64,000 nt of DNA from Kaistia dalseonensis (GTDB lineage: Bacteria > Pseudomonadota > Alphaproteobacteria > Rhizobiales > Kaistiaceae): positions 682,001 through 746,000 of the forward strand of contig NZ_JAUSVO010000002.1 in assembly GCF_030814715.1 (NCBI RefSeq). Direction: 5' to 3'. The position numbers and the translations under genes were made by a program. How positions within the stretch are numbered: position 1 is the first letter of the stretch; each line of letters begins with the position of its first letter. Shown one piece after another: positions 54,133-59,724 of this stretch. The notes under the pieces are model-generated. The model searched no databases, was not told where the DNA came from, and saw nothing but the letters and a program-made list of their open reading frames with translations.

Positions 54133-55170
54133 TCAGGGATATTTCAGATCGCGCGGCACGAAGAGGCCGGTGGGCGGCCGGATCGCACTCGAGAAATCAG
54201 GCGAATCGCCGGCGGCGAGCCCCAGCGCGCTGATCGCGGCACGGCGGCGGAATTCCTCGTAGGAAAGGCCGGTCTGGTAGCCCTGATGGTCGAACACATA
54301 ACTCGGCAGGTGGCCCGAGATCAGGATGCGGTAATCGACCGGCAGGCCCGGATCGAGCGCGCGGATCAGTCGGAAGACCACGGTCGTGCAGTTGGTCGTC
54401 AACGTATTGTAGAATTTCGGCGCCGCGTTCAGCGCATTGCCGGCATCGACATAGGAGAGGAAGAGCGCCCGCATGCCGGCCTTCGGCATGCCGAGCGGAT
54501 AGAGATAGACGTCCTCCTTGCGGACATTGGTCCGCAGATGCACGACATCGCGCTCGTCCGCGGCGACGAGAACCAGGGTGAAGACACGGAAGAACCCGGC
54601 AATGGCCGAGAAGGCCTGCGTCTTTTCGCGCCGGATCTCGGCGGAGAAGGAGACGTGGTCACCATTTTCGAAGCCGAAGGTGACGATCGTGTGGGCGATG
54701 GTCGGGCCGGCCCAATAGGCGAGGATCAGGTCGACGGACTTGATCTGGCTGAGATCATAGGTCCGCGTTTCCCAGCGGGGCGTGAAATCCTCATCGGTGC
54801 GCCAGCCGAAATTGCGGACATTATGCAGCGTGACGATGTCGCCATCGACGGTGCCCGAGACGCTGTGGGCGACATCGGGCGCCCAGTCCCGGTCGTTGGA
54901 GGGCAGGATCGTCGACCACCAGGCGCCGAAGACGAGGACCGCGACGACATAGCAGGCCGATGCCGGCCATTTGCGCCGCGAGAAGGTCAATACGATCACG
55001 GCGATGGCGAAAAGCGCCCATCCGGCAATTGCGATCGTGCGGCCGGCGTCGCCGAACGGCAGCTGGAAATAGAGGCAGAAGCCGATCCAGAGCGCGGAAA
55101 GCGCGATCGCGAACACCAGAAGCACATGGACGAACCCGCGCCCGATTCGCCCAAGCCAGCCGCCCCGCAT
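54133..55170 (-). CDS. DUF4105 (Lnb N-terminal domain) inner-membrane protein
   Basis: 345 residues. Three N-terminal membrane segments (about 12-35, 45-62, 70-90), then a periplasmic DUF4105 domain: NVRNFGWRTDEDFTPRWE, YWAGPTIAHTIVTFGFENG, YNTLTTNCTTVVFRLIRAL with the conserved Asn-Cys. Some DUF4105 proteins have been reported as lipoprotein N-acyltransferases (Lnb), a thiol-type transferase; others are uncharacterised. Whether this member acts on lipoproteins is inference. ATG follows AAGGAG. Confidence 0.85.
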   Translation of the reverse strand: MRGGWLGRIGRGFVHVLLVFAIALSALWIGFCLYFQLPFGDAGRTIAIAGWALFAIAVIVLTFSRRKWPASACYVVAVLVFGAWWSTILPSNDRDWAPDVAHSVSGTVDGDIVTLHNVRNFGWRTDEDFTPRWETRTYDLSQIKSVDLILAYWAGPTIAHTIVTFGFENGDHVSFSAEIRREKTQAFSAIAGFFRVFTLVLVAADERDVVHLRTNVRKEDVYLYPLGMPKAGMRALFLSYVDAGNALNAAPKFYNTLTTNCTTVVFRLIRALDPGLPVDYRILISGHLPSYVFDHQGYQTGLSYEEFRRRAAISALGLAAGDSPDFSSAIRPPTGLFVPRDLKYP

Positions 55171-55268
55171 CCCCGTCTCCTTCGCGCCGCCGCGCAGTCC
55201 CGAACGTCTTCCGGCGAAGACACGCTCGCCATAAGCGTTCTATCTCGTTGCTTTATCGCATTTGAGTC

Positions 55269-55288
55269 GCGTGGATCATGATCCGCGC
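55269..55288. repeat. 20-bp near-perfect palindrome in coaBC/DUF4105 gap
   Basis: GCGTGGATCATGATCCGCGC, nine of ten base pairs match, 13 bases after the coaBC stop and about 100 bases before the DUF4105 start. Possible operator for the DUF4105 gene or 3' hairpin for coaBC. Confidence 0.45.
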
Positions 55289-55301
55289 CGCCCGGAAATG
55301 C

Positions 55302-56519
55302 CTAGCTCTTGCCGATCCGGTCCGCGATCCAGCCGACGAGCCGCGTGCCGACCTCGTCCTTGGGCAGCTTCGGCCAATGCTCGATGCCGTCTTTGGTGAC
55401 GAGATGGACCGTATTCTCGGTCCCGCCCATGACACCCGTACCAGCGGAGACGTCATTGGCGACGATCACGTCGCAGCCCTTGCGCGCGAGCTTCGCCTCG
55501 GCGTTCGCCAGCACGTCGTTCGTCTCGGCCGCGAAGCCGATGACGAGGCCGGGCCGGAGATCGGTCCGGTGGGCAATAGTCGAGAGGATGTCGGGGTTTT
55601 CGCTCATGGCGAGCGGCGGGACTTTGCCGCTGCCGTCCTTCTTGATCTTCAAGGAGGCGGCTTCCGCCGGCCGCCAATCGGCGACGGCAGCCGCGAACAC
55701 CGCAATATCAGCAGGGAGCGCCGCTTCCACGGCGGCGAGCATGTCGCGCGCCGTCTCGATCCGGCGGACGGTGACGCCGGGCGGGTCGGGCAGGCCAACG
55801 GGCCCCGCGACCAGGGTCACCCGGGCTCCCGCGCGCGCCGCCGCCTCGGCAATGGCGAAGCCCTGCCGGCCCGAGGAGCGATTGGCGATATAGCGGACGG
55901 GATCGATCGGCTCATGCGTCGGCCCTGCCGTGACGACGACGTGCCGGCCGGCGAGAGGCTTCTCGGCCGGCGAAAGCAGCGCCTCGGCGGCCGCGACGAT
56001 CGCCAGCGGTTCGGACATGCGCCCCGTTCCGGCCTCGCCGCGCTCTGCCATCTCACCGCGCTCGGGGCCGACAAAATGGATGCCGTCGGCCTGCAGCCGG
56101 GCGACATTGCGCACGGTCGCGGGATTGGCCCACATCAGCGGGTTCATCGCGGGCGCGACCAGCACCGGACGGTTGGTGGCGAGGAGAATGGCGGTTGCCA
56201 GATCGTCGACAAGGCCTGCTGCCATCTTCGCCAGCAGATCGGCGGTGGCGGGCGCGACGATGACGAGATCATGGTCGCGCGCGAGGCGGATATGGCCGAT
56301 ATCGTGCTCGTCCTCGCGATGAAAAAGCGCGGTGAACACCTTGCCGCCTGAAAGCGCGCCGGCCGCGAGCGGCGTCACGAATTCGGTCGCGCCCTCCGTC
56401 ATGACGACACTGACAGCGGCGCCGCGTTCCTTGAGCCGCCGGATCAAGTCGAGCGCCTTGTAGGCGGCGATACCGCCGGACATGACGAGCAGGATGCGGG
56501 TGGAGGAGAGCGATGACAC
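55302..56519 (-). CDS. coaBC: Bifunctional phosphopantothenoylcysteine decarboxylase / phosphopantothenate-cysteine ligase
   Basis: 405 residues; two steps of coenzyme A synthesis. CoaC part: ILLVMSGGIAAYKALDLIRRL, catalytic His in HIRLARDHDLVIVAPATADLL, flavin/substrate loop PAMNPLMWANPATVRN. CoaB part from about 185: VVTAGPTHEPIDPVRYIANRSSGRQGFAIA and the KIKKDGSGKVP region. I place the start at the GTG 56519, just past the toxin gene's stop; neither it nor the GTG at 56534 has a good ribosome site, which suggests coupling to translation of the upstream gene. Confidence 0.95.
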   Translation of the reverse strand: MSSLSSTRILLVMSGGIAAYKALDLIRRLKERGAAVSVVMTEGATEFVTPLAAGALSGGKVFTALFHREDEHDIGHIRLARDHDLVIVAPATADLLAKMAAGLVDDLATAILLATNRPVLVAPAMNPLMWANPATVRNVARLQADGIHFVGPERGEMAERGEAGTGRMSEPLAIVAAAEALLSPAEKPLAGRHVVVTAGPTHEPIDPVRYIANRSSGRQGFAIAEAAARAGARVTLVAGPVGLPDPPGVTVRRIETARDMLAAVEAALPADIAVFAAAVADWRPAEAASLKIKKDGSGKVPPLAMSENPDILSTIAHRTDLRPGLVIGFAAETNDVLANAEAKLARKGCDVIVANDVSAGTGVMGGTENTVHLVTKDGIEHWPKLPKDEVGTRLVGWIADRIGKS

Positions 56520-56521
56520 GT

Positions 56522-56944
56522 TCAGAGAACCCACGGATCGACGACAGCGACGCCGCAATCCTCGAAGTCCCTCACATTGCGCGTCGCAACGCCCATATCG
56601 CATGCCAATGCGATGGCGGCTATCTGCATGTCGAAAGGCGCTATCGAGCGCCCGGCCCGTCGCCGCTCGGAGAGCAGCGGCGCGTAGTACGTTGCGGCCT
56701 GCTCGTCGAAGGGAAAGACGCGGCCCGCGAAGAGCGCGACGACCCGCTCTGCCGCCGCCTTTTTTTCGTTCTTGCGGCGGCCACCCGGCATCAGCTCGAT
56801 GCCCGAGAGCGTTTCGGCCAAGGTGATGCTGGTCGTGAAGGCCTCGGCAACCGTCAGAAAGCCGAACCAGTCAAGCACGGCCTCGGACGCGGCATCCGCA
56901 GGCTTCATGAGTTCCGAAAGTACGTTCGTATCGAGGATGATCAC
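56522..56944 (-). CDS. PIN-domain toxin (VapC/FitB type)
   Basis: 140 residues. Ribonuclease of the PIN family with the acidic triad/tetrad visible: Asp5 (MIILDTNVLSEL), Glu44 (TLAETLSGIE), Asp105 (IAPFDMQIAAIA) and Asp126 (TRNVRDFEDCGVAVV). MIILDTNVLSEL is typical of the FitB branch. GTG start overlapping the antitoxin stop by 4 bases; its stop lies next to the coaBC start. RNA target unknown. Confidence 0.9.
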   Translation of the reverse strand: MIILDTNVLSELMKPADAASEAVLDWFGFLTVAEAFTTSITLAETLSGIELMPGGRRKNEKKAAAERVVALFAGRVFPFDEQAATYYAPLLSERRRAGRSIAPFDMQIAAIALACDMGVATRNVRDFEDCGVAVVDPWVL

Positions 56945-57195
56945 GATTCTAGGTCAAACCGCGGCGGTTCACGGTAGGCTAACCGCTCCGGCAGATCGAG
57001 GTCGACGCCGGCAACGGGGTCGACGATCGCGCGGATGGCGTCGGTGAGATTGTCATTCGGGCGTGCTGCGCCGGGCGTACGGCGCAGGCCTCGAATTTCG
57101 GCGATGCGCATGGCCGCGGTCTTGCCTTGCTGCGGCTTGGGGCCCATCGCCTGGGCCCTGGTGGCCTGCTGCTTTTCAATCGCTGGGCTTGCCAT
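56941..57195 (-). CDS. Probable cognate antitoxin of the PIN toxin
   Basis: 84 residues with GGAGGG ribosome site, overlapping the toxin by 4 bases (GTGA), the typical antitoxin-toxin layout. The N-terminal ~28 residues are Gln/Lys-rich and likely disordered; IRAIVDPVAGVDLDLPERLAYREPPRFDLE at the C-terminal end is the kind of Pro/Glu-rich tail that wraps a PIN toxin. I do not recognise the usual FitA/VapB ribbon-helix-helix or AbrB fold in the middle, so the DNA-binding part, if any, is unassigned. Confidence 0.72.
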   Translation of the reverse strand: MASPAIEKQQATRAQAMGPKPQQGKTAAMRIAEIRGLRRTPGAARPNDNLTDAIRAIVDPVAGVDLDLPERLAYREPPRFDLES

Positions 57196-57255
57196 CGAAC
57201 CCTCCGCTACCGGACGTAGCGTCAGCTTAACGTCGGAGCGGCCGAATTCAAAGAC

Positions 57256-58830
57256 CTACCTGAGGCCGATCCAGGCGAGGAGCGCCGCCACGACCCAGAT
57301 GCCGATGGTCAGCCAGCGGTTTCCGCGTCCCTCGGCCCTGCCGATCGCCTCGACCGTGTCGGGCGAGAGCGTCAGCCCGTTGCGCGTCGCCTGGTCGAGT
57401 TGGGCGGCGATGCGTGCGCCATGCTCCACCATGCCGGGCAGGCGCGTCGCGGCGCGGCCGAAATCGGACAGACCACCGGCGGCCTCCTCGATCTTGCCGG
57501 CCGGTCCGAGATTGCGCTCGATCCATCCGCGCACGACCGGCTCGGAGGCATCCCACATGTCGAAATCGGGATCGAGCGATCGCGCCACGCCCTCGACGAC
57601 GACCATGGTCTTCTGCAGCATCAGAAGCTCGGGCCGGGTCTGCATGTCGAAGAGCTCGGTGATCTCGAAGAGCAGCGTCAGGAGCTTCGCCATCGAGATG
57701 TCGCGGGCCGGCTGGCCATGGATCGGTTCGCCAATGGCGCGCAGCGCCTGGGCGAAATCCTCCGGCGCATGGCGGGCGGGAACATAGCCGGCTTCCATAT
57801 GCACTTCGGCGATGCGCAGATAGTCGCGCTTGATGAAGCCGTAGAGGATTTCGGCGAGGAACCGCCGCTCCGCCTTGCCCAGCCGCCCCATAATGCCGAA
57901 ATCGACCGCGACGACATCGCCCTTGGCGTCGACGAAGAGATTGCCCTGGTGCATGTCGGCATGGAAGAAGCCGTCGCGCATGGCATGGCGCAGGAAGGCC
58001 TGCATCAGGTGCCGCGCCACCAGCTTCGGATCATGGCCGGCCGCGGCGATGCCCGCCGGATCGGAGAGCTTGACGCCGTCGATCCATTCGAGCGTCAACA
58101 CGTCGCGGGCCGTGCGCGCCCAGTCGATGGTGGGCACGCGAAAACCCGGATCGCCCTTTGTCCGCTCCGCCATTTCCGAGAGCGCGGCGGCCTCGAGCCG
58201 CAGGTCCATCTCCATCGAGACGGAGCGGGCGAGGATGTCGACGACGGAAACCGGCTTCAGCCGCCGCGAGGCCGGGTCGAGCTTCTCGACGAGGCCGGCG
58301 CCGGCATAGAAGGTCGAGAGATCGCGGCGGAAACGTCCGCGCACGCCGGGACGCAGGACCTTGACCGCGACGACGCGTACCGTGCCGTCGGCATCCGTGA
58401 CCTCGGCCTTGTGGACCTGGGCGATCGAGGCGGCGGCGATCGGCGGCGAGAAGGCTGAAAAGATCGTGTCGACCGGCCGGCCGAAATTGCGCTCGATCGT
58501 CGCGCGCGCAGCGGCCTCGCCAAAGGGTTCGATTTCATCGCGCAGCTTGCCGAGCGCCTCCGCGACATCATCGCCGACCAGATCGGCACGCGTCGCCAGG
58601 AACTGGCCGAGCTTCACATAGGAGGGGCCGAGGCGGTTGAGCGCATGCGATATCCGCTCGCCGCGATCGGCAACCTGCGCGGAGCGGCGTTCGAACAGGC
58701 GTCCGATGCGGATGCCAAATGCCGCGCCGGGCGGAATGTCGTCAATATCGACGATCGAGAAGGCGCCTTCGCGCGCCAGCACGAATCCGGCCGCCGCGAG
58801 GCGGAAGAGAGCGGCGGGGCCGATTGCCAT
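57256..58830 (-). CDS. ubiB: Ubiquinone biosynthesis protein kinase-like UbiB
   Basis: 524 residues. ABC1/UbiB atypical kinase: LGPSYVKLGQFLATRADLVGD (KxGQ), AAASIAQVHKAEV (A-rich loop), VVAVKVLRPGV, and FFHADMHQGNLFVD with VAVDFGIMGRL. One C-terminal membrane segment (WLTIGIWVVAALLAWI). It supports an early ubiquinone step, possibly as an ATPase that extracts precursors from the membrane. Five bases after ubiE; followed by the TA pair before coaBC. Confidence 0.96.
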   Translation of the reverse strand: MAIGPAALFRLAAAGFVLAREGAFSIVDIDDIPPGAAFGIRIGRLFERRSAQVADRGERISHALNRLGPSYVKLGQFLATRADLVGDDVAEALGKLRDEIEPFGEAAARATIERNFGRPVDTIFSAFSPPIAAASIAQVHKAEVTDADGTVRVVAVKVLRPGVRGRFRRDLSTFYAGAGLVEKLDPASRRLKPVSVVDILARSVSMEMDLRLEAAALSEMAERTKGDPGFRVPTIDWARTARDVLTLEWIDGVKLSDPAGIAAAGHDPKLVARHLMQAFLRHAMRDGFFHADMHQGNLFVDAKGDVVAVDFGIMGRLGKAERRFLAEILYGFIKRDYLRIAEVHMEAGYVPARHAPEDFAQALRAIGEPIHGQPARDISMAKLLTLLFEITELFDMQTRPELLMLQKTMVVVEGVARSLDPDFDMWDASEPVVRGWIERNLGPAGKIEEAAGGLSDFGRAATRLPGMVEHGARIAAQLDQATRNGLTLSPDTVEAIGRAEGRGNRWLTIGIWVVAALLAWIGLR

Positions 58831-58835
58831 CGGTC

Positions 58836-59612
58836 TCAGGTTTTCCAGCCCGAATGCAACGCCGAGATGCCGCCGGTCAGGTTGCGGTAGCTGACCTGCG
58901 AAAAGCCCGCCTGCCGGATCATCTGCGCGAAGCGCTCCTGATGCGGGAAACGGCGGATCGATTCGACCAGATAGCGATAGCTCTCGGCGTCGCCCGCGAC
59001 CGCGCGGCCCATCTGGGGGATCAGGTGGAAGGAATAGAGGTCATAGATCTTGTCGAGGCCGGGCACGTCGACGGAGGAGAATTCGAGGCAGAGAAAACGC
59101 CCGCCCGGCTTCAGGACGCGATAGGCCTCCTTCAGCGCCTGGTCGATGCGGGGCACGTTGCGGATGCCGAAGGCGATCGTGTAGGCGTCGAAACGGCCGC
59201 TTTCGAAGGGCAGCTCTTCAGCATTGCCCTCGACGAAGGTGACGTTGTCGGCGAGGCCGCGCTTCTCCGCGCGTTCGCGGCCGACCTCGAGCATCGAGGT
59301 GTTGATGTCGCAGACGATGGCCTTGGCGTTCTTGTGCGAGCGATCGACGATGCGGAACGAGACATCGCCCGTGCCGCCCGCGACATCCAGCACCTCGAAC
59401 GGCCGGTTCGACGGCGGCGACAACCAGGAGACCATCGCATCCTTCCAGATCCGGTGCAGGCCGCCCGACATCAGATCGTTCATCAGGTCGTAGCGCGACG
59501 CCACCTTGTGGAAGACGGCGTCGACCATGCCCTGCTTGGCGTCGAGCTCGACATCGCGAAAACCGAACGAGGCGCGCTGTTCTGCCTTGTCGGAAACAGT
59601 TTCCGTCGCCAT
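58836..59612 (-). CDS. ubiE: Demethylmenaquinol/2-methoxy-6-polyprenyl-benzoquinol methyltransferase UbiE
   Basis: 258 residues. SAM-dependent C-methyltransferase of ubiquinone (and menaquinone) synthesis. [38 protein letters not shown] (SAM loop), [19 protein letters not shown] and FLCLEFSS are present. ATG 59612 is 9 bases from AAGGAG; a GTG at 59615 is 6 bases from it and is equally possible. First gene of the ubiE-ubiB unit, divergent from mutM. Confidence 0.96.
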
Positions 59613-59724
59613 CACGCCACACTCCTTATATTACGCACGCCAGCATTCATTGCCGCCCTTGATAGACGAAGCGCGGCGATGGCGCCACGGCAGACCAACC
59701 GCATCGTTGACGCATCGAGAACAC

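Follow-up and report, generated by a model that had tools for sequence, protein, structure and literature searches.

A probable FitAB-type toxin-antitoxin module in a recurrent slot between ubiB and coaBC of Kaistia dalseonensis, and its relation to RHH-CoaBC fusions

The window, a stretch of 64,000 nucleotides of the Kaistia dalseonensis genome (contig NZ_JAUSVO010000002.1, positions 682,001 to 746,000 of the forward strand), carries between ubiB and coaBC a pair of small genes that is likely to be a type II toxin-antitoxin (TA) module of the FitAB (VapBC) type. In the reading that we favor, the module sits in a recurrent slot and is coupled to coaBC, and the RHH DNA-binding domain of its kind of antitoxin has been captured by CoaBC elsewhere. 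The larger finding is the slot itself, together with the repeated capture of an antitoxin DNA-binding domain by an essential enzyme.

Results

Gene organization of the ubiB-coaBC junction

The description of the locus given in an earlier note, made from the DNA letters alone, was confirmed. The antitoxin ORF, the toxin ORF and coaBC were all located on the minus strand, as were ubiE and ubiB, and the toxin stop and the best coaBC start were indeed 2 bases apart. The features are listed below in the order of transcription, with positions in the window.

58836..59615, minus strand: ubiE (PF01209, 1.1e-89)
57256..58830, minus strand: ubiB (above the NCBIfam cut-off)
57196..57255, minus strand: 60-nt leader from the ubiB stop to the antitoxin start, with the ribosome-site match CGGAGGG
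56941..57195, minus strand: antitoxin ORF, 84 aa, with a FitA-like C-terminal tail and without the FitA-like RHH DNA-binding domain
57052..57195, minus strand: antitoxin residues 1-48, in the place of the RHH (no RHH signal in six frames)
56953..57051, minus strand: antitoxin residues 49-81, conserved tail of the GxDLxLPxR type, probably toxin-binding (alignment with relatives)
56522..56944, minus strand: FitB-like PIN toxin ORF, 140 aa, GTG start (PF01850, FitB match, acidic residues)
56941..56944, minus strand: 4-nt overlap GTGA of antitoxin stop and toxin start (sequence)
56517..56524, minus strand: toxin stop TGA (56524-56522), 2 nt, and coaBC start GTG (56519-56517)
55302..56519, minus strand: coaBC, phosphopantothenoylcysteine decarboxylase/phosphopantothenate-cysteine ligase (above the NCBIfam cut-off; without RHH extension)

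A FitB-like toxin was found directly 5' of coaBC in 18 surveyed genomes with four family codes (f1, 7; f34, 7; f23, 2; f35, 2; six duplicate loci left out), and the toxin-coaBC arrangement of the window is therefore not a chance one.

The toxin, and an antitoxin that keeps its tail and lacks the RHH

The window toxin matched the PIN domain in Pfam (PF01850, 2.6e-12), and the closest solved structure in the PDB was FitB, with 3e-24 over residues 1-139. The acidic residues D5, E44 and D105 were unchanged in all seven aligned toxins from this site. Both the PIN toxin with conserved acidic residues and the antitoxin-first order with overlapping genes are as in FitAB and VapBC, and the toxin would be expected to act as a PIN ribonuclease kept inactive by the C-terminal tail of the antitoxin. 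Neither protein of the window pair had a match in PADLOC.

The earlier note had recognized no fold in the middle part of the antitoxin. The HMM search of the 84-aa protein likewise gave no Pfam match up to E=1, and the missing fold is accounted for by a FitA-like tail combined with loss of the RHH domain. The tail was common to FitA-like relatives, with R71 invariant among 10 aligned sequences, and this resemblance suggests a toxin-binding tail of the FitAB/VapBC kind. A sensitive profile search detected no RHH in any of the six frames of the antitoxin region of the window or of G004, the other occupied genome of the genus (best E 0.5), while G015 and G025 scored 1e-23 to 1e-24 in the same search. 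A frameshifted RHH concealed in the window antitoxin was ruled out by the lack of signal in six frames. The antitoxins at the same site in G015, G019, G060 and G024 carried a FitA-like RHH (PF22513, 2e-14 to 2e-18), and that of G004 did not. The first 48 residues had no known relative except in G004, the two antitoxins being 52% identical in a two-row alignment, chiefly in the tail. The structure model was of low confidence (mean pLDDT 58.7) and showed residues 1-48 as helices only. The window pair may work like FitAB, and is not filed here as a canonical member because its antitoxin has no N-terminal RHH.

Start of coaBC and possible translational coupling

The GTG at 56519 leaves 13 residues ahead of the conserved flavoprotein motif of CoaBC and is the likely start; it is not proven, since further in-frame GTG, TTG and ATG codons lie 13, 37 and 82 nt upstream, within the toxin gene. 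Ribosome-site matches in the window were -10.0 kcal/mol for the antitoxin ATG, -2.9 for the toxin and -3.8 for the coaBC GTG. A sigma-70 consensus scan of window positions 54500-59000, which proves little, gave no promoter match. Among the 17 sites with an assigned coaBC start (G327 left out), the distance from the toxin stop to the coaBC start was -4 nt in 12, and -8, +1, +2, +6 and +10 nt in the rest. In G384, the first CoaBC codons were seen in another frame than the rest, perhaps owing to an assembly error.

The adjacency of stop and start in the window is that found in translationally coupled pairs. The earlier note had stated that coaBC lacked a clear ribosome site and that its translation may now depend on the pair. 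The site was weak in the window as stated, but a weaker coaBC ribosome site as a general mark of occupied junctions was rejected by the comparison of occupied with empty sites (p = 0.12; the window row was scored from a wrong start). As for dependence on the pair, the tight geometry in the 18 genomes fits coupling, while the ribosome sites do not differ significantly. A tie of the window pair to coaBC is plausible.

Occupancy of the junction across genomes

Comparison of the ubiB-coaBC spacing within the genus was in line with the proposal that a TA pair has been inserted. The pair was present at only two of the 13 readable junctions (the window and G004), and the other 11 were empty, with 31-63 nt from the ubiB stop to coaBC. 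G004 showed the same architecture as the window, with a toxin identity of 59% among the matches listed. A profile of seven site toxins matched at least 103 of the 397 genomes of the order at E<=1e-24. In f34, where all 18 genomes were searched, seven were occupied. Two other family surveys covered the best 30 loci by CoaBC similarity out of 81 and 80 genomes, and the rates there are biased; two partial G095 loci were left out of one locus set.

The junction was also compared with its neighbor between ubiE and ubiB, using 76 coaBC places of the 116 genomes with a match. Gaps of more than 400 nt were found in 12 of 75 ubiB-coaBC junctions and in 1 of 104 ubiE-ubiB junctions; in the 74 genomes with both junctions, the counts were 12 and 0, respectively (p = 3e-4). 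Eight of these 12 gaps contained TA genes: six had a FitB-like toxin, one a PIN pair of another kind (G094), and the last a HigBA (G022, L181; PF05015, 3e-13). A HicAB module was identified in the same junction of G498 (L385:839-1464), with HicA at 7.5e-7 for PF07927 and HicB below the cut-off, and a second type of PIN was present at the junction in five genomes. The slot also held a GreA-like gene in G017 (L176; PF01272, 5e-21), followed by an RHH-CoaBC fusion.

Inspection by eye revealed a GreA/GreB-like ORF in the junction of G020 (L179), and in G097 (L194) an ORF resembling GGDEF/EAL that fills the junction on the opposite strand. In G024 (L183), antitoxin, toxin and coaBC lay together while ubiB was on another contig, as if the module moved along with coaBC.

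None of 55 named loci from outside the order (L105-L160 without L131) matched the TA profiles, and the larger gaps there held other genes, as judged from clustering. Of 183 loci that extend 1200 nt or more downstream of coaBC, none matched these profiles there, versus 66 of the same set upstream, a comparison in which the loci are redundant and upstream finds were the source of the profiles. The ubiB-coaBC junction is best read as a recurrent TA slot and not as the trace of a single event.

Fusion of the RHH domain to CoaBC

A FitA-like RHH was found within the CoaBC reading frame at 45 loci, 42 of them distinct (including L085-L100, L104, L131 and L359-L382), and all five fusions tested in Pfam contained PF22513, PF02441 and PF04127. 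On the CoaBC tree, 26 of the 143 genomes carried a fusion (f35, 21; f23, 3; f1, 2), and the distribution of this state needed 12 changes, at least five of them well supported. Seventeen of 80 named loci were fusions, including those of Bradyrhizobium sp. U87765 and LHD-71, Afipia birgiae and A. clevelandensis. Pairwise identity was 0.79 in the RHH and 0.77 in the CoaBC part versus 0.20 in the linker, and the RHH had a median pN/pS of 0.24. The structure model of a fusion (mean 74.5) placed RHH helices at residues 11-24 and 28-41 with moderate confidence and left the linker disordered. A possible internal start (ATG, GTG or TTG) was found in the linker or searched segment of 24 of the 42 fusions, with an ATG in 10, and the other 18 had none. 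RHH and enzyme in one frame, the arrangement of PutA, was thus found in the relatives' fusions and not in the window. The antitoxin has probably been captured repeatedly as a regulator of CoA synthesis, which would act by repression. Repeat-like sequence was seen inserted between ubiB and the start of RHH-CoaBC in L365, L370 and L098.

The palindrome TGATTGCA-N-TGCAATCA was located 5' of the RHH, and 39 of the 42 fusion regions had 10 or more of its 12 core bases. The same threshold was reached by 17 of 22 regions of TA modules with an RHH and by none of 124 RHH-free junctions, where the consensus was derived from these same sequences and identical regions were counted once. An earlier operator test had given 40 of 42 fusion regions and 5 of 124 controls, and palindromy alone (p<=0.05) was found in 23 of 42 fusions versus 6 of 124 controls. 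L365 and L370 were exceptions, having the palindrome further upstream, beyond the inserted sequence. In G270 (L316), the ubiB stop codon itself was seen to be part of the palindromic operator. The region 5' of the antitoxin contained this operator neither in the window nor in G004, the best site in the window leader having 7 of 12 core bases; with the relatives' operator as the model, the palindromic operator that stands 5' of the antitoxin in FitAB is absent here. An inverted repeat of another kind, CGCTAC-5 nt-GTAGCG, was observed in the leader 5' of the window antitoxin (57205-57221).

Origin, replacement and decay of the modules

The 16 toxins from this site clustered in the toxin tree (4 label changes versus 14.8 after shuffling), and a tree constrained to group them as a single clade was worse by 0.64 log-likelihood units (p-AU 0.481), so that the tree neither shows nor rejects a single origin. 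Toxin and CoaBC distances were weakly correlated (r 0.44, p 0.0014; 17 genomes). When FitAB occupancy was mapped onto the CoaBC tree (143 genomes), no fewer than 14 changes were required, of which at least 10 fell on well-supported branches; the tree was limited to one locus per genome and to CoaBC of 330 aa or more, and G502 was scored as "none" despite a remnant. G235 and G373 were 94% identical in CoaBC and 52% identical in their toxins, a divergence that suggests toxin replacement. The earlier note had regarded the pair as inserted and not as ancestral at this place. On this point the results are divided, the fit of one origin speaking for an ancestral pair, and the number of changes and the toxins that look replaced speaking against it.

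Several copies were decayed. G023 had a toxin without its first 50 residues, no antitoxin and a still perfect operator. The antitoxin was kept in G486, where the toxin was a 34-codon mini-ORF overlapping both neighbors. G522 kept antitoxin and operator; its toxin deletion was out of frame, so no relay to coaBC is left there. A C-terminal scrap of the toxin was seen by eye in the gap of G502, and in G426 and G429 an antitoxin was present but the toxin was nearly or entirely gone. The expectation in the earlier note that the TA pair would be hard to lose was not supported, because the slot takes other modules and shows decayed copies (G023, G486 and G522), and most of the genus has no pair.

Discussion

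The window antitoxin no longer has a DNA-binding domain, and the operator of the module is gone as well; the pair is therefore probably transcribed with the ubiE-ubiB operon and not autoregulated in the manner of FitAB. The strong ribosome site of the antitoxin, followed by the weak sites of toxin and coaBC, would set up a chain of reinitiation, in which the ribosomes that translate coaBC have probably just terminated at the end of the toxin gene (termination-reinitiation). In the Hyphomicrobiales, the junction has been taken repeatedly both by this toxin family and by unrelated TA modules, with decay in place, and in many lineages the antitoxin RHH has become part of CoaBC, still behind its former operator; the product is probably a CoA enzyme that represses its own synthesis. 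A broader reading, to which we would give slightly less than an even chance, is that the junction is a workshop for the domestication of TA modules. A module would enter, become tied to CoaBC, have its toxin excised with antitoxin and operator retained (as in G486 and G522) and end as a self-repressing RHH-CoaBC, the window being a side branch that dropped RHH and operator and kept the toxin-CoaBC tie.

Other histories of the locus may be considered. A FitAB module may have entered the junction once, in the ancestor of the families, and undergone many losses, guttings and fusions since; we regard this as possible while leaning against it. The fit of a single clade to the site toxins, their few label changes, the correlation of toxin and CoaBC distances, and the RHH-less antitoxin in both occupied members of the genus agree with it. 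The changes in occupancy, at least 10 of them forced by well-supported branches of the CoaBC tree, and the apparent replacement between G235 and G373 do not. The suggestion that the window holds an ordinary passenger, a FitAB-type module in a permissive junction whose spacing reflects usual operon compactness and next to which coaBC starts independently, appears unlikely. It would explain why the coaBC ribosome site is not significantly weaker at occupied sites, why the slot also takes non-toxin cargo such as the GreA-like genes of G017 and G020, and why occupancy changes often. However, the 4-nt overlap at 12 of the 17 sites with an assigned start compared with 31-63 nt in the 11 empty relatives, the almost uninterrupted ubiE-ubiB junction next to it, and the 26 of 143 genomes in which CoaBC carries an antitoxin domain argue against a mere passenger.

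The view that the window module is simply dying, with the loss of RHH and operator a sign of decay and not of adaptation, seems improbable. The decayed copies in relatives, the antitoxin N-terminus without a relative outside G004 and its low-confidence model are in line with it, but the catalytic acids of the toxin and the antitoxin tail are intact, both frames are open, and G004 maintains the same architecture at a toxin identity of 59%. We thus retain as likely the reading of a FitAB-type module, coupled to coaBC, in a recurrent slot.

The junction offers a natural series at one site, consisting of the empty state, the full module, the gutted module and the RHH-enzyme fusion, and the question of how a selfish TA module becomes a host regulator is therefore directly testable. 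Should the RHH-CoaBC proteins repress the operator that precedes them, CoA synthesis in many Hyphomicrobiales, including Bradyrhizobium, would be under the control of a domesticated antitoxin. In the window, production of an essential enzyme may depend entirely on ribosomes fresh from toxin synthesis. A search of the open-license full-text literature found no paper linking coaBC to toxin-antitoxin systems or to an RHH.

The closest described system, the VapBC-type FitAB from Neisseria gonorrhoeae (PDB 2h1o, 2bsq and 2h1c), shares with the window pair the PIN toxin, the overlapping antitoxin-toxin order and the tail arginine, whereas the window antitoxin has neither RHH nor operator and its module appears tied to coaBC. 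According to the portion of the source available (PMC3384007), Arg64 of VapB and Arg68 of FitAB plug the PIN active site, and the tail arginine of the window antitoxin sits near that position. An RHH joined to a flavoenzyme has its known precedent in PutA (PMC5293562). The relatives' fusions are similar in having an N-terminal RHH on a flavoenzyme, by analogy probably repressing its own gene; they differ in the enzyme, and in an RHH of the antitoxin type at a place where TA modules reside, and the window is not a fusion. Antitoxins have been proposed to become dedicated regulators of host genes (PMC8987985, a review). Capture in the present case differs in that it would be tied to a single, constant site, through fusion or overlap with a biosynthetic gene that is essential.
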